64,000 bases of DNA from Nitrospiraceae bacterium (GTDB taxonomy: Bacteria; Nitrospirota; Nitrospiria; Nitrospirales; Nitrospiraceae): assembly GCA_019637075.1 (NCBI GenBank), contig JAHBWI010000009.1:1-64000 (forward strand), written 5' to 3'. Of the stretch, positions 13,757 through 22,296 are shown piece by piece; within the stretch, counting starts at the first letter, position 1; the number at the start of each line of letters is the position of its first letter. The position numbers were made by a program, and so were the translations under genes. A model generated the notes under the pieces. It saw nothing but the letters and a program-made list of their open reading frames with translations. It made no database searches and was not told the DNA's origin.

Positions 13757-14200
13757 TCAATCGTCTTCCGGATTGATGATGTGGAGTCCGGTCGGCCGGC
13801 AGGCGGCCAAGAGTTGCTTATCGGCACTCACGACCGTGAGGCGAAGCGGCTTCAATTCCAAGGCCAGCGCCAGGTGCAGCAACTGCATCGAGCGGAGCGC
13901 CGGGTAGTCCAGGAGCAACTCCTTCGCGGCCAGGTACGTCTGCATCGTCGGTGAGATAAATTGGTAGAGCCCCTGGGTCGATTCCATTTCAAACTTGTAC
14001 ATGACGGAATAGCAGTCGTCCCGGGTGATTTCTCCCTGTTGGGCCCGTACCGAGAGCGCCGAGTAAAACTCGGTCACAGTCCACATCGGGAGGATTGCGA
14101 CCTTTCCCCGCTTGACCATCAGTTTATTCACGACGCGGGTTCCGCGTTCCATGCTGTAGCGTTTCACCAACGCGGTAGAATCGAAGTAGTAGTACGGCAT
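13757..14200 (-). CDS. PIN-domain ribonuclease toxin (VapC-like)
   Basis: A 147-residue PIN protein. Acidic site residues are visible: Asp7 in YYYFDSTALVKRY, Glu44 in TVTEFYSAL and the later SADKQLLAA Asp; LLHLALALE occupies the place of the usual D-x-x-H-L-A-x-A, with the Asp replaced. Such proteins are Mg-dependent RNases, often cutting tRNA or rRNA. The gene starts one base after the stop of the small gene at 14202, which is probably its antitoxin. The departure at the third acidic position could reduce activity. Confidence 0.78.
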   Translation of the reverse strand: MPYYYFDSTALVKRYSMERGTRVVNKLMVKRGKVAILPMWTVTEFYSALSVRAQQGEITRDDCYSVMYKFEMESTQGLYQFISPTMQTYLAAKELLLDYPALRSMQLLHLALALELKPLRLTVVSADKQLLAACRPTGLHIINPEDD

Positions 14201-14201
14201 C

Positions 14202-14453
14202 CTATGCCCTCCCCTTCAAGAGGCTGTCGGCCAGCGGAGACTGCAGCTTCGACAGGCGATCCTGCAATTCGTCCAGCGGCAGCTCCTCGTAGTACCCTTG
14301 TTTGCGGAAGGTGCTGAGAATGCCGCTGCCGAGCACCTGTTGAGTGTCGGCGGTCAGGCGATCGCGCAATCGTTTTTTCATGACGCGGCTCGACACACGA
14401 GGGCCGGCCGTCGTGTCACGTCCGGAAGCTTTGCGAGTTCCTGTCTTACTCAT
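14202..14453 (-). CDS. probable antitoxin of the PIN toxin
   Basis: An 83-residue protein, AGGAGA before the ATG, starting MSKTGTRKASGRDTTAG. The N-terminus is basic and disordered; the C-terminal half (DTQQVLGSGILSTFRKQGYY and the ELPLDELQDRLSKLQSPLAD segment) is helical. It matches no antitoxin family I can name with certainty. The call rests on size, the basic N-terminal region, its position immediately upstream of the PIN gene and the near-overlap of the two genes. Confidence 0.55.
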   Translation of the reverse strand: MSKTGTRKASGRDTTAGPRVSSRVMKKRLRDRLTADTQQVLGSGILSTFRKQGYYEELPLDELQDRLSKLQSPLADSLLKGRA

Positions 14454-14484
14454 CCGCTCTCCTCTCTCCTGGGGTTGATGGGCC

Positions 14485-15609
14485 CTAGTTGGGCATCGGG
14501 TGTGGTGGGGCCTGGTCTCTCGGGCATCCGGGAGGTGTGCCTGAAGATGTCGGCAACTCAGCCTCGCCGTAGATGTAGCCCGCAATGGCATGTGCCAACT
14601 CGGACGAAAACTCCTGCTGCATCACGCGTACGGCCTTCGCCTGTGCTTCCTTTTCCGTAATGTGGCCTTCTTTGCCGCCCTTGGAGACGGCGCCGATCAG
14701 GCGCCGGGCCGGCAAGTCCTCGATCACGGCATCGGTGCACCAGCGGACGTACCGGAATTGGGGATCTTTCACATCGAGGGACCAGAGCCGGACGGTTCCC
14801 TTTATGAGCAGTTCCGGGGCGCCCGCATTGTCGCGTCCCACCATCGAGAAGCCTTCGCGGGCCAGTCCTTCGATGAGCGCGCGTTCGACGGGTTCTGCCT
14901 GGTCTCCGGTCATCTCGACCGCGAGACGAAGATTGGAGGCCAGGAACTGTTCCAACTCGCCGGTCAGTTCCGCCACACGAAACGATGCGGGGGTGCCCTG
15001 CCCGCTGGATCGAATCACCCGTAGATCGGTGTTATAGGCTTCACGCAGCACGAGATTCTTGGTGGCCCGTTTCAAATTTCGCACACGGGTGAGTTTGTCC
15101 TGGGCTTGGTGTGCATCGGTCACCTCCGTCTGGATGGTCCGGTCGAGCTCATTCAACCGTTCCACCATCGACGCTTCCGCTTGCGCGCGGTTCATCCCGG
15201 CCAGAGCATAATACTGTCGTTTCTTTTGGTCAAACCAGGTGTCGAGCACCAGGACATTTTCCAGGACCTTGTCCGTCGTGACCTGCGTGACGTTGTCGAG
15301 TGTCAGCCGTCGTTCCGTGCTGGTCTGTCCCCGCTGTTCGACCACCAGGTAGGATTCCCAGTCTTTAGCTTGGGCGGTGATTTCCGCTTTGAAGATCCGG
15401 GAGACGGCGGCATAGGCCTGCTCCGTGGCCTGTTGACGCGAATCTGCTTGGCCCAGGCCGATCAGATACTGGCTGCTTGGGAATTCGGCGCTCTGTCCAT
15501 CCACCCACGTTGGGCGCGGCTTGCCGCCGCAGCCTATCAGGAGCAGCGTTGAGGCCATCAGGCAGATCACCGCCAGGGTCAGTTTGTTGTGTGTGATGGA
15601 ATCCGTCAT
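14485..15609 (-). CDS. LPP20-like lipoprotein
   Basis: The 374-residue product has a lipoprotein signal peptide with lipobox LLIGC (Cys27). The mature protein starts GGKPRPTWVDGQSAEFP and SSQYLIGLGQADSRQQATEQ, the LPP20 pattern (P-x-W, YL-x-G-x-G-x-A, then a helix of Ala/Glu). A second half (EPVERALIEGLAREGFSMVG and APELLIKGTVRLWSLDVKDP) resembles the CsgG/LpoB-like domain in which subunits recognise short periplasmic folds. It ends in a Pro-rich tail. Its ATG overlaps the stop of the COG3014 gene by 4 bp. It is likely anchored in the outer membrane, facing the periplasm. Confidence 0.78.
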   Translation of the reverse strand: MTDSITHNKLTLAVICLMASTLLLIGCGGKPRPTWVDGQSAEFPSSQYLIGLGQADSRQQATEQAYAAVSRIFKAEITAQAKDWESYLVVEQRGQTSTERRLTLDNVTQVTTDKVLENVLVLDTWFDQKKRQYYALAGMNRAQAEASMVERLNELDRTIQTEVTDAHQAQDKLTRVRNLKRATKNLVLREAYNTDLRVIRSSGQGTPASFRVAELTGELEQFLASNLRLAVEMTGDQAEPVERALIEGLAREGFSMVGRDNAGAPELLIKGTVRLWSLDVKDPQFRYVRWCTDAVIEDLPARRLIGAVSKGGKEGHITEKEAQAKAVRVMQQEFSSELAHAIAGYIYGEAELPTSSGTPPGCPRDQAPPHPMPN

Positions 15610-17096
15610 TGCACCACCCGTTCGATGAGGAATTTGGTTTCGCCGGGACGAAGCGTCAACGATTGTGCCCGAGGGCTGGGCAGTGGGCCGCCTCCGCGAC
15701 CCACGCAACGAATCCGCGCTTCATATTCACCGGCCGGCACCCAGATCCGGTTGATCTGAATTTCGTCTGGCAATGTCCTCCAGCTTCGTTTGTCCGCCTC
15801 TTCCGACGCGATCGCCAGCCCGTGCGTCAACAAGCCCACGGCCAAGCCGACCCAGGGCGCGTCGTCCTTGTTGACCGCCTGTTGCGCGCCTCGCGTCGCG
15901 GCTTCGGCTGCTGCGAATTTCACGGCTGCTCGGGCTAAGGCCTTGGTGGTGATGCCGGCCATGCGTTCCGAGAGCGACTTCTCCGCCAGCGCCGTGCCGT
16001 TGTAGACGAGTTGCGAACTCTCGGAAATGGGAGCGCCCTCGCGCGGAACCAGCGTCACTTCTTCGTACTGTATCTGCGTCTTCTGCGGAACCAGCCTGGG
16101 TAGCGCCACTCGCACGACCCGGCCGTTCAACCCATAGAGCAGGCTGTCCGCCGCCCGGCGTTCTTTCCGGTTGGAGGCATGCGCGACGCCCCGGTTCAGT
16201 AGAACCAGTTGGAGCGCATCGAGGCTGATCGGAATGTCGAGGTAATTATCTTCCTTGTGCGGGGCGCGACCGTTGTAATTGATGACGACTACCTGGGCGA
16301 GATCCGCGTGATCGTTGCGCGAAACCCAGGGGACGTCCGGGAATTGGCGCCGGTATTCATCCAACTCGGTCGTCAAATGCAGGGCATCGCTCGTACGCAG
16401 CAGGTCGGCCTTGAGCATGAGCGGCATCGGAGTCTTTGCCCATCCGCGGGTCTCCTCAAAAATGTCGTAGGCTTTTCGGTAGGCCACGAAGGCATTGTTG
16501 ATATCCCCGGCCGCCTCATAGAGCACGCCGGTGAGGTAGCGCGCGAAGGCATCTTCCCGATAGGCCGCCTTGTCCGTGACCTTGTCCGAGAGCACATTCA
16601 GTCGGTGATCGATTTGCCTGGCCTCGACGAGGGACTCGTTGATCTGGCCGAGCACCGCATAGTCGAGCGCTTTGATGACGTTGATCATCACGTGCTCGTA
16701 GGGGGCGCCTTCGTAGGGCAGGACGTTGTCGTTGGTGAGGAAGGCCGTGGTTTCGGTCCTGATGGTTTTGGTGTACAGCCGTTCGACTTCCTGGTCGGCG
16801 CGCTCTAGAAAACCGATGCTCTTCGTGTATTCGCCGGCCAGATGGAGCGTCATACCGCGCTCCATGCTGTAGAGGAGCCGGTTGCGTGAGCCGTAATCGG
16901 ACTCAGCCTCTTCCATGATCGCGTCCGCGCGTTTGGGATCTCCGGCGGCAAGGCTCTGATCGATCAGGAGATAGTGATTACTGGAGAGGCTGCAGCCGCT
17001 CAGCAGGAGCAGGCTCCAAGCGAGCAACGTAGGGAGAGTGAACCGAAAGCGGCCTCCCTGCAGGGAGGCCGCGGTCGATGGGATTGGTCGTCTCAA
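15606..17096 (-). CDS. COG3014-type lipoprotein with TPR-like repeats
   Basis: A 496-residue lipoprotein with lipobox LLSGC (Cys35). The mature N-terminal half is TPR-like (AIMEEAESDYGSRNRLLYSM, ERGMTLHLAGEYTKSIGFLE, ARYLTGVLYEAAGDINNAFV). The C-terminal half is beta-rich with DLAQVVVINYNGRAPHKED and ITTKALARAAVKFAAAEAAT. This matches the uncharacterised COG3014 family, frequently found beside LpoB- and LPP20-type lipoproteins. It probably belongs to an envelope complex with its neighbours. The gene is followed at 4-bp overlap by the LPP20-like gene and lies 15 bp after the LpoB-like gene. Confidence 0.8.
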   Translation of the reverse strand: MRRPIPSTAASLQGGRFRFTLPTLLAWSLLLLSGCSLSSNHYLLIDQSLAAGDPKRADAIMEEAESDYGSRNRLLYSMERGMTLHLAGEYTKSIGFLERADQEVERLYTKTIRTETTAFLTNDNVLPYEGAPYEHVMINVIKALDYAVLGQINESLVEARQIDHRLNVLSDKVTDKAAYREDAFARYLTGVLYEAAGDINNAFVAYRKAYDIFEETRGWAKTPMPLMLKADLLRTSDALHLTTELDEYRRQFPDVPWVSRNDHADLAQVVVINYNGRAPHKEDNYLDIPISLDALQLVLLNRGVAHASNRKERRAADSLLYGLNGRVVRVALPRLVPQKTQIQYEEVTLVPREGAPISESSQLVYNGTALAEKSLSERMAGITTKALARAAVKFAAAEAATRGAQQAVNKDDAPWVGLAVGLLTHGLAIASEEADKRSWRTLPDEIQINRIWVPAGEYEARIRCVGRGGGPLPSPRAQSLTLRPGETKFLIERVVQ

Positions 17097-17111: not shown

Positions 17112-17741
17112 CTAAAAAATCGTGCGTTTCTTTTCGATGACTTTCTTGATCTTCTTCTGGCCGAACCACGATTTGATGTTGTTTTCGAGGTCCACCATTT
17201 CCAAGTCGATCTGATAAAAAACCGCCTTGGTGCCGTCCTGTTCGTCCAGGATCGTCGAAATGCTGCCCCGCATCATGTAGTCCGCGCCGAGTTCCTTTCC
17301 CGGCGCTTTCTGCGTGTCCTCGCGCGCGTGGACGGCCTGCTCCCGCCGCTCCTCGCGCACTTCCTCACGTTCGCCCTTGCCGGCGACGAACATCACCCGT
17401 TGGGAATTCGTCAGCTCTCGTTCCAGGTCGCTGACGAAGGTTTGCACATTGATGTGTTCATGACTCTTGTTGATGACCGTGCCGACGATCACAACCGGCT
17501 GGCGCGACTTGGCTTTGGTGAAATTGTCGAGCCAAGGGCTTCCCACGGCTTCTTTCACCATGGTCTCCGCCACCATCCGTGAGTCCGTGTCGTTCCAGCG
17601 CCCGCTCAGGTCCGTGACGGTGCCGGTGTCGACGCGCGTTACTTTGTTTTCGTGCCCACAACCGCTCAAGAACGATGTCGTCCCGATTACAGCCAAGGCG
17701 GCCATCGCCCGTCCGATTGAACGACTCGACCACTCGATCAT
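17112..17741 (-). CDS. lpoB: LpoB-like penicillin-binding-protein activator
   Basis: A 209-residue lipoprotein, AGGAGGAGA before the ATG, lipobox FLSGC (Cys28). The mature part has the LpoB features TDLSGRWNDTDSRMVAETMV, PVVIVGTVINKSHEHINVQT, FVSDLERELTNSQRV and GADYMMRGSISTILDEQDG. In enterobacteria LpoB reaches from the outer membrane to stimulate PBP1b. Between the strands this copy has an inserted charged stretch (GKGEREEVREERREQAVHAR) also common outside enterobacteria. No PBP gene is near, so the partner is unknown. Confidence 0.82.
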   Translation of the reverse strand: MIEWSSRSIGRAMAALAVIGTTSFLSGCGHENKVTRVDTGTVTDLSGRWNDTDSRMVAETMVKEAVGSPWLDNFTKAKSRQPVVIVGTVINKSHEHINVQTFVSDLERELTNSQRVMFVAGKGEREEVREERREQAVHAREDTQKAPGKELGADYMMRGSISTILDEQDGTKAVFYQIDLEMVDLENNIKSWFGQKKIKKVIEKKRTIF

Positions 17742-17781
17742 GCCAATCTCCTCCTGGATGCGGCGGATGGGTTCTGCCTCG

Positions 17782-18348
17782 CTACTTCGTGGCCCGCTTG
17801 TCTTCTTCCTTTTCCAGCCGATCGAACAACCGGTCCGCGTTTTTTCGGACAAAGTCCCGCACTTGGCTGTTCAATTCCTTTGCCTGGTCTAGGTTGTTCT
17901 TCATGTCTTCCAAGCTGAGCTTGGTAAGGACATAATAGGTGCCGGACTTCTCGTCCTTATAGCGGTCGATCGGCTTCACGCCGTTGAGCGTGACGGCAGA
18001 GAAGGTCTTCACGGCTCGTTCGATATTCTGTTCTTCGCTGTTTCGGGAGAAATCGCCGGCCGTGGTGGAGGCCGCATAGTCGCGCATCAGGTAAGCCGTG
18101 TAGGTCTCGAAGGTCTTGGCGATCTCGGCGCGGCTACGATTTTCGGCCGTATCCCAGGCGAGCGGTTCGTTCCGCACTCCAACGACCGAGCCGACACCGT
18201 AAAAGGATTTGTCGTTCTTTTCATTGTACGCGCCTGAGCCCTTCTGTACCCAATTCGGGGGGCCGCCGCACGCCGCGAGACCGATCACGAGCACGAGCGC
18301 CAATGCGCTGCCGCTGATTTTCGAAAGAGCCCCCACTACTCTACTCAT
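17782..18348 (-). CDS. LPP20-family lipoprotein
   Basis: A 188-residue lipoprotein starting MSRVVGALSKISGSALALVL, lipobox GLAAC (Cys27), AGGAGG upstream of the ATG. The mature protein begins GGPPNWVQKGSGAYNEKNDK, then SFYGVGSVVGVRNEPLAWDT and NRSRAEIAKTFETYTAYLMR, the LPP20 pattern. It is the first gene of the four-lipoprotein run and its C-terminus is charged and helical (FVRKNADRLFDRLEKEEDKR). It shares the LPP20 layout with the gene at 14485 but is only half its length. It probably resides in the outer membrane facing the periplasm. Confidence 0.8.
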   Translation of the reverse strand: MSRVVGALSKISGSALALVLVIGLAACGGPPNWVQKGSGAYNEKNDKSFYGVGSVVGVRNEPLAWDTAENRSRAEIAKTFETYTAYLMRDYAASTTAGDFSRNSEEQNIERAVKTFSAVTLNGVKPIDRYKDEKSGTYYVLTKLSLEDMKNNLDQAKELNSQVRDFVRKNADRLFDRLEKEEDKRATK

Positions 18349-18580
18349 ACGAGTCCTCCTTGGTGTAATGCACGTCAGAGCTGTCGGCGGTGGAATGCGG
18401 GTGGCGAGAAACATTGAGGTGTTCGAGGCTCAGTCTGTGTGAAGACATAATTGCCCGAAAAGTCACGGGGTTATGCTAACATGCACCTCCGAGAGAGTCA
18501 ACGCATGGCGCGGGAGTTGGTTGACGGAACTCGATACGAATATTCAGACGGTCGGACATTTCATAGGTAAGGAGGCCTCT

Positions 18581-18751
18581 GTGGCGGACGTTCAGATTCA
18601 AGATGGGATCATTCGGATTGCGGAGCTCGACATTCAGGACCCCAAGGCGGCGGCTGTATTGGCCGAATATCCGCAGGTCCGATGGCCGGAAATCACCAGG
18701 CGCGCATTGAAAATCGGATTGGGATATCTCAAGGGCGGGGGGAAGGACTAA
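18581..18751 (+). CDS. 56-residue uncharacterised protein, GTG start
   Basis: A perfect AAGGAGG lies 5 bases before GTG at 18581, giving MADVQIQDGIIRIAELDIQD and then a helical end (WPEITRRALKIGLGYLKGGG). The size and hydrophobic/acidic pattern resemble small regulators or antitoxin-like proteins, but no family is recognised. It stands alone between divergent and convergent neighbours. The strong ribosome binding site is the main argument that it is real. Confidence 0.5.
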   Translation: MADVQIQDGIIRIAELDIQDPKAAAVLAEYPQVRWPEITRRALKIGLGYLKGGGKD

Positions 18752-18826: not shown

Positions 18827-20203
18827 TTACGGACTCGCCGCAGGAGGAGCCTGCGGCCGGACCGCGCGCTGCGCACGCTCGCTCTGTCCGCCAAGTTCCA
18901 GATAGCGGCGGAACGCGTCGACCGATTTCACCGGTTCATTGAGGTGATCAGCGTAGAGGGTGCCGAGGGAGAAATACACGTCCGTATAGGCAGGGTTGAC
19001 GACGAGCGCCTGCTGCATGGCCCGTTCGGCCTCCTTGAATTGCCCCTGCTTTTCGAACACTAGCCCGAGCGTGTAATGGGAATCGGGATTCTGCGGCGCA
19101 TATTGCACGGCGGCTCTCGCGGCCACCAGGGCTTCTTCAACGTTCGGAAGGATTTCCAACCGCACATAGCTCTTCAATACATAGGCATCGCCGAAGGACG
19201 GGTCGTAAGCGATGGCGCGATTGAGCCGCTCCAGCGCTTCCTCGGCTGATTTCTGGTTTTGCAGGAGCGCGAACGCCTCTTCATATTGCGTACGGGCTGC
19301 CTTGGCTCGATCGGCTTGGCTGGTCGGTTCCTGTCCCATCTGGAAGGAGGCCTTCTTCCCCTCCACCAGGATCACGTCTCCATCGCCTTCCAGCTGGGCA
19401 AACTGCGGATGCTGTTTCGACTTCGTCCCTTCTAATTGCTGCTTTACAAAGGCACCCAACTCGCTGGCCATGATCCAGCCGTTCTTGTTGAGGTCGGCCG
19501 AACCCTTCATGCCGGAAACCAATGCCTGCACGAAGGGGTCAGCGCCGGCCGTGCGATCGATCGGCTCGTCTTTGCCGGCGGCCGTCAGGACCTGGACCGC
19601 GCGCTTCTCCGTCTCATCTTCAGGCGATAACCGGCCTTCGAGCGACAACTGTTGGGGCGCCGTCACTTCCCATCCCTGTAGGCCGGCGTCCAACAAGAGA
19701 AGCAGGTGCTTCGAGGCGGATCGGCGTGTGAACTCCTTGATATGGTCGAAGGTCACGGCCTTCGTGGCGTTGTTGACCTGTGCATCCCATGGGACAAGGT
19801 ACCCGAGCTCCTTGGCTTGAGCATCCTGGGTGGTCACGCCGTGGCCGGAGAAGAAAATCACCACGCGGTCTTGGCGTCCGACCTTGCGCGGCAGATAGTC
19901 GGACAGAATTTGCATCAGCCGTTTGGAACTGGCGTCCTTGTCGTAGAGCTCGATGACTTCGTCGAATCCCAATTCTCGCAGCGACGTCGCCACAGCCTTC
20001 GCCCCTTCGATCGCGCCGGGAGCCTTGGGCGCCACGAGATAATTTTCGATCCCGATGACCACGGCCCAGGATTTGTAATACAAGCCTTCGGGCTTGCCTA
20101 CCTGCGCATGGACGGTCGGGAGAAGGGTAAAGGAGCTGAGAACAGAAAGAGCGAGTGCGGCTGAAATCGAACGGAGGAACCGGCCTGTGACGTGGGAGCG
20201 CAT
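18827..20203 (-). CDS. secreted caspase-fold (C14-like) protein with TPRs; catalytic Cys lost
   Basis: A 458-residue protein with a signal peptide (cleavage near VHAQ, residue 34). Residues about 42-290 are a caspase-like domain: WAVVIGIENYLVAPKAPGAI, then ELGFDEVIELYDKDAS and RVVIFFSGHGVTTQD with the catalytic His121. The second catalytic site, normally D-x-C-x-S-G, reads LLLLDAGLQGW, so Gly174 replaces Cys. An EF-hand-like loop (ADLNKNGWIMASEL) follows. Residues about 310-440 form three TPRs. It should be a non-proteolytic scaffold in the periplasm. It lies beside the four lipoproteins, on the same strand. Confidence 0.85.
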   Translation of the reverse strand: MRSHVTGRFLRSISAALALSVLSSFTLLPTVHAQVGKPEGLYYKSWAVVIGIENYLVAPKAPGAIEGAKAVATSLRELGFDEVIELYDKDASSKRLMQILSDYLPRKVGRQDRVVIFFSGHGVTTQDAQAKELGYLVPWDAQVNNATKAVTFDHIKEFTRRSASKHLLLLLDAGLQGWEVTAPQQLSLEGRLSPEDETEKRAVQVLTAAGKDEPIDRTAGADPFVQALVSGMKGSADLNKNGWIMASELGAFVKQQLEGTKSKQHPQFAQLEGDGDVILVEGKKASFQMGQEPTSQADRAKAARTQYEEAFALLQNQKSAEEALERLNRAIAYDPSFGDAYVLKSYVRLEILPNVEEALVAARAAVQYAPQNPDSHYTLGLVFEKQGQFKEAERAMQQALVVNPAYTDVYFSLGTLYADHLNEPVKSVDAFRRYLELGGQSERAQRAVRPQAPPAASP

Positions 20204-20406: not shown

Positions 20407-22296
20407 ATGGACGAAAAGATCGATACCTTGCTGAAAGAAGGCCGCGTCATTACCCCGACCGCCAAAACGAAGTCGGCGGCCCATATTCAAGATTACGAGG
20501 CAGCCTACCGGGCATCCATTGCAGATCCAGAAAAGTTTTGGAGCGGGGTAGCGCAGGAACTCGACTGGTTCACGCCCTGGCATCGCGTGCTGGAGTGGAA
20601 CTATCCTTGGGCCAAGTGGTTCGTCGGCGCAACCTGCAACATCGCCTACAACTGCCTGGATCGGCATGTCAAAACTTGGCGCCGCAACAAAGTGGCGGTC
20701 ATTTGGGTCGGTGAAAACGGCGAAGAGCGGGTCTTCACCTATGGCGAGCTCTATCGACAGGTGAACCGCTGCGCGAATGCGCTCAAGGGGCTCGGGCTCA
20801 AGAAGGGCGATCGGGTCACAATCTATCTGCCGAAGATCCCAGAGCAGATCGTGGCCATGCTGGCCTGCGCCAGGCTCGGACTCATTCACAGCGTAGTGTA
20901 TTCCGGCTTCAGCGCGCCCGCTCTATCCAGCCGCATCCAGGATGCGGAAGCGCGGCTCGTGATTACGGCCGACGTCGGGTACGACCGGGGCAAGACCATC
21001 AACCTCAAAGGCGTCGTGGATGATGCCGTGCAGACCTGCCCTTCCGTCGAGAAGGTCGTGGTGGTTCGCCGGGAGAAGATGGGCATTGCCCTTTCGGCTC
21101 CCAAGGAAATCGATTGGAATGACTGGCTGAAGGATCAAAAAGCAGTGTGCGAGGCCGAACAACTCGACGCCGAATCGCCGCTCTATATTCTCTACACCTC
21201 AGGGACAACGGGGAAGCCGAAGGGCGTAGTCCATGTGCATGGCGGCTATATGGTCGGCACCTATATCACGACCAAGTACGTCTTCGATCTCAAGGAAGAA
21301 GACGTATACTTCTGCGTTGCAGACCCAGGATGGGTAACAGGCCACAGCTATATCGTCTACGGGCCGCTCTTGAACGGTGCGACGATCCTGACCGCGGAAG
21401 GAAAGCCGGATTACCCCAACCCCGGCCGTTGGTGGGATCTCATCGAACGATACGGCGTCTCGATTTTCTACACGACCCCGACAGCCATCCGTCTCCTCAT
21501 GAAGTACGGCGAGGATTGGCCCAAGAAATACGACCTGTCCAGTCTGCGAATTCTCGGCAGCGTCGGCGAGCCGATCAATCCGGAAGCGTGGGAATGGTTC
21601 TTCCGGGTTACCGGCAGCGACAAACCGATCATGGATACCTGGTGGCAAACGGAGACCGGCTCCATCTTGGTCACGCCTCTGCCCTGCGTCCCGCTGAAGC
21701 CGGGGTCCGCCACAAGGCCGTTCCTCGGGATCGAAGCCGACGTGGTGGACAAGGAAGGCAACAGCCTGCCCGGTAATTCCGGGGGCTTCGCCGTGATCAG
21801 AAAGCCATGGCCTTCGATGATGCGGACCATCTACAAGGACCCGGATCGATACAAGGTGTACTGGAATACGATTCCGAACTGTTATACGGCGGGCGACGTG
21901 TGCCGAAAGGACGGCGACGGCTACCTGTGGTTCATGGGGCGCGCGGACGACGTCATCAAGGTGGCAGGCAACCGCATCGGCACGGCGGAGGTGGAGAGCG
22001 CGCTGGTGGGCCATGCCGCCGTCGCGGAAGCCGCGGTCATCGGCAAACCGCACCGCACCGCCGGCGAAGCCATCAAGGCCTTCGTCATCCTCAAGCAGGG
22101 CTATCAGGACTCGAAGGAACTGATTCAATCCCTCAAAGACCACGTCCTCAAAGAGTTGGGCAAGATCGCCGTCCCGCAGGAAATCGACATCGTGCCATCC
22201 CTGCCCAAAACACGATCGGGCAAAATCATGCGGCGGGTGCTCAAGGCCAAGGAATTGGGCCAAGACGTGGGAGACATCTCGACGCTGGAAGATTAG
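20407..22296 (+). CDS. acsA: acetyl-CoA synthetase (AMP-forming)
   Basis: A 629-residue adenylate-forming enzyme. Visible motifs: the Acs N-terminal domain (AAYRASIADPEKFWSGVAQE), the P-loop-like YTSGTTGKPKGVVHVHGGY, the acetate-pocket motif DTWWQTETGSI, YTAGDVCRKDGDGYLWFMGR, and the C-terminal PKTRSGKIMRRVLK whose Lys is the usual acetylation site. It converts acetate, ATP and CoA to acetyl-CoA. GGGAGG precedes the ATG. It has its own promoter and no operon partner. It may serve acetate assimilation. Confidence 0.94.
   Translation: MDEKIDTLLKEGRVITPTAKTKSAAHIQDYEAAYRASIADPEKFWSGVAQELDWFTPWHRVLEWNYPWAKWFVGATCNIAYNCLDRHVKTWRRNKVAVIWVGENGEERVFTYGELYRQVNRCANALKGLGLKKGDRVTIYLPKIPEQIVAMLACARLGLIHSVVYSGFSAPALSSRIQDAEARLVITADVGYDRGKTINLKGVVDDAVQTCPSVEKVVVVRREKMGIALSAPKEIDWNDWLKDQKAVCEAEQLDAESPLYILYTSGTTGKPKGVVHVHGGYMVGTYITTKYVFDLKEEDVYFCVADPGWVTGHSYIVYGPLLNGATILTAEGKPDYPNPGRWWDLIERYGVSIFYTTPTAIRLLMKYGEDWPKKYDLSSLRILGSVGEPINPEAWEWFFRVTGSDKPIMDTWWQTETGSILVTPLPCVPLKPGSATRPFLGIEADVVDKEGNSLPGNSGGFAVIRKPWPSMMRTIYKDPDRYKVYWNTIPNCYTAGDVCRKDGDGYLWFMGRADDVIKVAGNRIGTAEVESALVGHAAVAEAAVIGKPHRTAGEAIKAFVILKQGYQDSKELIQSLKDHVLKELGKIAVPQEIDIVPSLPKTRSGKIMRRVLKAKELGQDVGDISTLED

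Follow-up and report, generated by a model that had tools for sequence, protein, structure and literature searches.

What can a caspase-fold protein do once its catalytic cysteine is gone? The question is raised by one gene in the 64,000-nucleotide stretch of Nitrospiraceae DNA analyzed here (the window). This gene, at 18827–20203 on the minus strand, starts with ATG and encodes 458 residues; the protein is named PC1 here and reads as an exported pseudo-caspase with TPRs. Residues 1–33 (20105–20203, minus strand) were identified by eye as a putative signal peptide, in which a basic start is followed by a hydrophobic run and a cleavage site between VHA and Q34. The latter residue is invariant in 40 PC1 rows. 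A caspase p20 domain occupies residues 39–283 (19355–20089, minus strand), as indicated by PF00656, an AlphaFold2 model and a fold match to MALT1. The Pfam caspase profile PF00656 covers residues 45–270 with 47.7 bits against a cut-off of 21.4, which places PC1 in Peptidase_C14 by the curated threshold. No separate p10 family was reported by Pfam on PC1, and the model contains one caspase domain, over residues 39–283. The TPR region spans residues 294–445 (18869–19324, minus strand), with Pfam TPR families matching at about residues 355–441.

Two more specialized caspase profiles were compared with the protein. The EACC1-associated caspase NF047832 scored 48.9 bits, under the NCBIfam cut-off of 140, so that PC1 falls outside this family. 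The PADLOC caspase defence profile matched the PC1 domain with 46.3 bits, and none of the four neighboring genes scanned matched a PADLOC family. One promoter-like and four terminator-like sites were found, which is no excess over shuffles.

An AlphaFold2 model of PC1 was calculated from 40 family rows, with a mean pLDDT of 81.7 and a pTM of 0.56. The closest solved fold (Foldseek, VIA-align) is that of the MALT1 paracaspase, in 3uo8 and other entries; 3uo8_C aligns with the model over 204 residues within 40–282 (Z 23.1, rmsd 2.5), yet at 17% identity. MALT1 is an active protease. Metacaspases and caspase-3 and -7 come next, with Z values of about 20–21, while the TPR part matches the TPRs of SPINDLY and OGT with Z of about 20. 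The caspase fold was not revealed by a PDB sequence search with PC1, in which the 60 matches listed cover TPR residues only.

The family alignment comprises 132 PC1 rows, including copies of some genomes, and holds 120 distinct domain sequences. His121, the catalytic-base position (19841–19843, minus strand), sits within FFSGHG and is His in 132 of 132 rows. The position of the nucleophile is taken by Gly174 (codon GGC; 19682–19684, minus strand), within LLLDAGLQGW. Across the 132 rows this column holds Pro (41), Ala (40), Asn (30), Gly (17) or Ser (4), and never Cys. Among 24 remote C14 relatives used as a control, 21 have both dyad residues, H and C, at these positions. The three others are L186, where Cys is missing from the column through an alignment shift and the motif reads DVCYGG, L204, which truly has Phe at the nucleophile column, and L002, which is not aligned there. 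As judged from these sequences, the loss of Cys in PC1 exceeds chance. With His kept and Cys in none of the 132 rows, PC1 lacks the His–Cys dyad that defines an active orthocaspase; as a bacterial p20 protein with a substituted dyad, it belongs with the pseudo-orthocaspases.

The original prediction held that the catalytic His (FFSGHG) and the caspase fold are kept and that the nucleophile is gone, its motif reading DAGLQG. The alignment and the structure model bear out both statements. Gly at position 174, whose conservation was to be checked, turned out not to be a conserved replacement, as it occurs in only 17 of the 132 rows. A Cys elsewhere that might occupy the active site was sought, and none was found: PC1 of the window has no Cys along the whole protein, the mature chain is Cys-free in 98 of 101 family members, and the remaining three have a single Cys elsewhere. 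With Cys missing from this column throughout the family as well, a misread base in codon 174 is not a plausible explanation.

Over 99 rows, the entropy of column 174 is above that of 82% of the domain columns, and H121, W178, R110, D237 and E248 show no variation. Trp178 (19670–19672, minus strand) stands beside the dead site and is predicted to be located in the cleft. Together with W243, it is present in all 132 PC1 rows versus none of 20 dyad-bearing relatives. R110 is likewise found in every PC1 row, compared with 1 of 21 dyad-bearing relatives. Aspartate D172, which we take to be a substrate-pocket acid, is replaced by Asn in 32 of the 132 rows; the classical basic-peptide pocket is thus not strictly kept in PC1.

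A further conserved element is an EF-hand-like loop, DLNKNGWIMASE, at residues 237–248 (19460–19495, minus strand), which lies between two helices in the model. It was recognized by the relaxed pattern D-x-[DNS]-x-[DNSEG]-G-x-hydrophobic-x-x-x-E, which shuffling of the window's domain yields at 0.1%. The relaxed pattern is present in all of the 120 distinct PC1 rows and in 16 of 24 remote C14 proteins, as well as in two further families described below, PC2 (37 of 37 rows) and PC3 (33 of 33). The strict PROSITE-like EF-hand pattern occurs in 2 of the 120 distinct PC1 rows, 37 of 37 PC2 rows and 24 of 33 PC3 rows, so that the PC1 family does not qualify as a Ca2+-binding EF-hand by this pattern. 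Retention of the loop while the dyad is lost fits a retained role in binding or stability. Nevertheless, its relaxed form in most remote relatives and the near-absence of the strict form from PC1 mean that it may simply be structural.

Nitrospira bacteria are nitrite oxidizers. Of 110 genomes belonging to the same family, 108 contain a PC1 orthologue with E ≤ 1e-95, and G181 and G234 gave only weak matches. Among 33 genomes of the same order outside the family, no match reached the orthologue level, the best being 2e-23. A scan of named genomes identified 80 PC1 loci, almost all of which bear the label Nitrospira or Nitrospirae, including Candidatus Nitrospira defluvii and Nitrospira moscoviensis. 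A second PC1 copy was observed in N. moscoviensis and in UBA5699 (L108:6648-9347 and L109:6588-9287), immediately following a gene that encodes five CxxCH haem motifs. A tree built from 52 C14 domains separates 28 dead rows, with support of 100/99, from 24 others; this second group includes L204 and L002 and is therefore not purely dyad-bearing, and L198 and L204 sit on long branches.

The dead p20 domain is under strong purifying selection. For full-length PC1 genes, its median dN/dS is 0.091 (478 pairs, dS 0.1–1.5), and that of the TPR part is 0.108 (474 pairs). Several PC1 lineages are without TPRs, and the dead domain is equally constrained there: 17 TPR-less genes gave a median of 0.102 for p20 (41 pairs). 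These belong to a short clade of 18 loci, of which L174 escaped the selection motif, leaving 17 for the dN/dS and TPR-loss analyses. Parsimony requires five changes for the loss of TPRs, at least two of them forced by supported branches. The L180 gene has a stop codon beyond which 45 TPR residues can still be read at 87% identity to a relative; this loss is young. TPRs have been lost more than once, so the constrained core of PC1 is its dead domain, to which the TPRs are an accessory. The prediction of a signal peptide with C-terminal TPRs therefore applies to the protein of the window, the former as read by eye, and not to the several lineages lacking TPRs. Similarly, a periplasmic TPR binding platform agrees with a protein that is exported, as its sequence suggests, and best read as non-catalytic; it cannot be the core function of PC1, because several lineages do without the TPRs.

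PC1 is followed in the window by a run of lipoprotein genes, all on the minus strand: an LPP20-type lipoprotein, LPP20a (17782–18414; PF02169, 26.1 bits against a cut-off of 25.9), an LpoB-family lipoprotein (17112–17852; PF13036, 138.8 bits), a lipoprotein that we labelled COG3014-like (15606–17096; sub-threshold TPR only in Pfam) and a second LPP20-type lipoprotein, LPP20b (14485–15708; PF02169, 41.9 bits). Between PC1 and the run lies a conserved small gene on the plus strand (18581–18751, about 56 residues, GTG start by eye), on which no Pfam family scored above cut-off. Divergent from PC1 is a gene at 20407–22296 on the plus strand, presumably encoding an acetyl-CoA synthetase-like protein (acs). 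The order in named loci is acs, PC1, the opposite-strand small gene, LPP20a, LpoB, COG3014-like, LPP20b, a small gene and a PIN-like gene. The last two (13757–14591, minus strand; PF01850 at 15.1 bits, below cut-off) follow LPP20b in 68 of 70 testable loci. They look like a toxin–antitoxin-type pair inherited as a fixed neighbor.

This arrangement is widely kept. PC1 and all four lipoprotein genes were present in 81 of 100 loci examined. Among the places that could be tested, LPP20a followed PC1 in the same orientation in 82 of 91, the small opposite-strand gene lay between PC1 and the run in 85 of 91, and divergent acs was upstream in 86 of 92. The six places without acs include two overlap artefacts of stop-to-stop reading (L081 and L166), a gap of about 3.4 kb (L039), the second copy of a tandem pair (L089) and extra copies located elsewhere (L108 and L109).

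Nevertheless, the link between PC1 and the lipoproteins is syntenic and not obligate, since sister families have the run without PC1 and one genome has PC1 without the run. In 14 loci from the same order (L146–L156 and L158–L160), the LPP20–LpoB–COG3014-like–LPP20 run is present and PC1 is absent. Ten of these belong to family f2, and in the loci inspected the PC1 slot holds other genes. For most f2 loci inspected (L146–L151, L154), an ORF of about 525–550 residues on the other strand was observed in the slot, and a different, nucleotidyltransferase-looking ORF in L149. In two f3 loci acs directly adjoins the small gene with no PC1 between them; the small gene is kept also in sister families without PC1. 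Conversely, genome G105 (99% complete) keeps PC1, acs and the small gene and has lost the run: it gave no COG3014-like or LPP20 match and 20 bits only for LpoB, and its contig continues from PC1 and the small gene to a 41-residue PIN remnant. Nor does the run follow PC1 in L096, L101 and L090. An obligate partnership with the neighboring lipoproteins, as originally proposed, is contradicted by these loci; the run is a long-standing neighbor of PC1 and not a required partner.

A possible role of PC1 as regulator of an active caspase prompted a search of 20 genomes with a profile (A2) built from 13 rows of dyad-bearing relatives, all with Cys in the nucleophile column. The genomes were chosen for having at most one PF00656 match each. 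PF00656 is an incomplete guide to genomes, as it gave five matches in the window's genome in one run and four in another, and none in some genomes that hold a PC1 orthologue. The A2 search revealed two further families, PC2 and PC3, represented in the window's genome at G000:C2:38887-40749 (L212:5888-7750) and G000:C3:583122-585086 (L213:6123-8087), respectively. Their members have about 620–700 residues, a C-terminal caspase-like domain and weak CARDB or LptE-like signals. A loose pattern found a lipobox-like motif in 26 of 40 PC2 rows and 29 of 33 PC3 rows. PF00656 is above cut-off in some members (P0002, 37.3 bits; L218, 29.9; L219, 21.8) and below it or absent in others, including both copies of the window's genome. 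Profile comparison with A2 over the domain gave E values of 9.7e-49 for PC1, 2.3e-25 for PC2 and 5.8e-21 for PC3. For the caspase-like domain of PC2, a model calculated from three nearly identical rows reached a pLDDT of 45 and was set aside.

Both dyad positions are substituted in these families. In 41 PC2 rows the His column holds Q (36), L (3) or H (2), and the Cys column T (27), M (6), I (3) and five single others, never Cys. In 34 PC3 rows the His column reads R in 33 and L in one, the Cys column S in 33 and T in one. No PC2 or PC3 row has a Cys within ten columns of the dyad Cys column. At E 1e-20, PC2 was matched in 105 and PC3 in 104 of 108 genomes of the same family; the two queries cross-match, so these are joint upper figures. 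Relatives in the sister families f2 and f3 are mostly without Cys, several in f2 keep His, and L299, a relative of lipoprotein type, has both H and C. PC2 is directly beside PC1, in convergent orientation, in three genomes (L096, L101 and L090); in L096 and L101 the pair is followed by one further gene, which we take to be HtrA/DegP-like. The PC3 copy of the window's genome adjoins genes that presumably encode a bd-like oxidase and an NxrC-like subunit. For 15 of the 20 genomes, all A2 matches were to PC1, PC2 or PC3, and the remaining five each had one or two unclassified matches; G288 has PC1 alone. Four other C14 proteins are clustered in the window's genome (G000:C2:196381-227882), and in the alignment three of them (L001, L003 and L004) retain both H and C.

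We consider PC1 probably to be a pseudo-orthocaspase of the Nitrospira envelope: an exported, soluble protein whose caspase fold serves to bind or sense and does not cut. The clade-wide loss of Cys, the retained fold and His, purifying selection, the invariant R110, W178 and W243 and the dispensable TPRs argue for this non-catalytic reading. The binding or sensing surface, which could be Ca2+-responsive, may be made up of the remodelled cleft, the EF-hand-like loop and the conserved stretch Q34–W46 near the N-terminus; the TPRs, where present, would add a second docking site. PC1 belongs to a set with the lipoprotein-type PC2 and PC3 of the same genomes, in which the dyad is lost and the loop kept. 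A wider version, put forward tentatively and rather doubtful, is that Nitrospira might have an envelope sensing system made up of three or more dead caspases in parallel, among them the soluble PC1 and the lipoprotein-type PC2 and PC3, with the loop-bearing fold as sensor of ligand or stress and proteolysis given up independently in each family.

Other roles for PC1 have to be weighed against binding or sensing. The five genes found together in 81 of 100 loci and the same-strand LPP20a downstream (82 of 91) would suit a scaffold of the adjacent LPP20/LpoB/COG3014-like lipoprotein complex, perhaps tuning peptidoglycan synthesis. Such a scaffold is unlikely, given the 14 loci with the run and no PC1, the reverse situation in G105, and the small opposite-strand gene, which argues against simple co-transcription of PC1 and the run. 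PC1 might instead regulate an active caspase by pairing with it, for which we take cFLIP and animal pseudo-caspase partners as the analogy, and in the window's genome three of the four other C14 proteins, with their H and C, could serve as partners. Nevertheless, an active partner is not needed in the 15 genomes whose A2 matches are of dead families only, G288 has PC1 alone, and any partner would have to be periplasmic too; pairing seems very unlikely.

Retention of H121, D112, R113, K165, H166 and W178 in all or nearly all of the 132 rows could also reflect another chemistry, catalyzed through H121 and family-specific residues. This is highly improbable where the nucleophile position drifts freely (column 174, above), where 98 of 101 chains offer no other Cys and where PC2 and PC3 have lost the His too. 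Finally, the lost nucleophile and the stop codons that remove the TPRs in some lineages might mark PC1 as a decaying relic of an active caspase. The selection result leaves this next to no credit: dN/dS is about 0.09–0.10, the TPR-less group included, and 108 of 110 genomes keep the gene.

Pseudo-orthocaspases, dead p20 domains with TPRs and His–Ala dyads are already known. In the main text of a survey of these proteins, they are described as caspase p20 without p10 and with a substituted HC dyad; 90% are from Alphaproteobacteria and Cyanobacteria and are tied to photosynthesis, FS variants of Rhizobiales carry C-terminal TPRs, and HA variants, in which His is kept, are listed as common (PMC6426788). 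PC1 resembles the proteins of this main text in its p20 domain, substituted dyad, retained His and TPRs; PC1–PC3 differ from them in being near-universal in a nitrite-oxidizing family, and the word Nitrospira is absent from the main text (PMC6426788). According to its abstract, SyOC of Synechocystis is a studied bacterial pseudo-orthocaspase whose knock-out tolerates oxidative stress better; it is cyanobacterial, is likened to PC1 here by description and not by sequence, and export and TPRs are unmentioned in that abstract (PMC7889975). A 2012 survey of prokaryotic caspase homologues reports, in its passages on Nitrospirae, 57% intact C–H dyads, which is consistent with the PC1 finding; unlike the present analysis, these passages contain no families, export, synteny or selection (PMC3501461). 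The words caspase, peptidase C14, lipoprotein and LpoB are absent from the main text of a 2025 ISME J comparison of Nitrospirales, and nothing relevant was found among the papers listed for LpoB, LPP20 or COG3014 together with a caspase. A lineage-wide, three-family set of dead envelope caspases was not found in the literature searched, which was largely outside subscription papers.

A non-photosynthetic nitrifier family thus keeps three separate, near-universal families of dead caspases in its envelope. As their hosts are nitrite oxidizers, the published link between pseudo-orthocaspases and photosynthesis is weakened. The natural variants of PC1 without TPRs suggest that function resides in the dead domain itself, and the set as a whole suggests a caspase fold used for binding or sensing and not for cutting. 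With exported proteins, known synteny and invariant residues as a starting point, PC1–PC3 make such a non-cutting role of the caspase fold testable.
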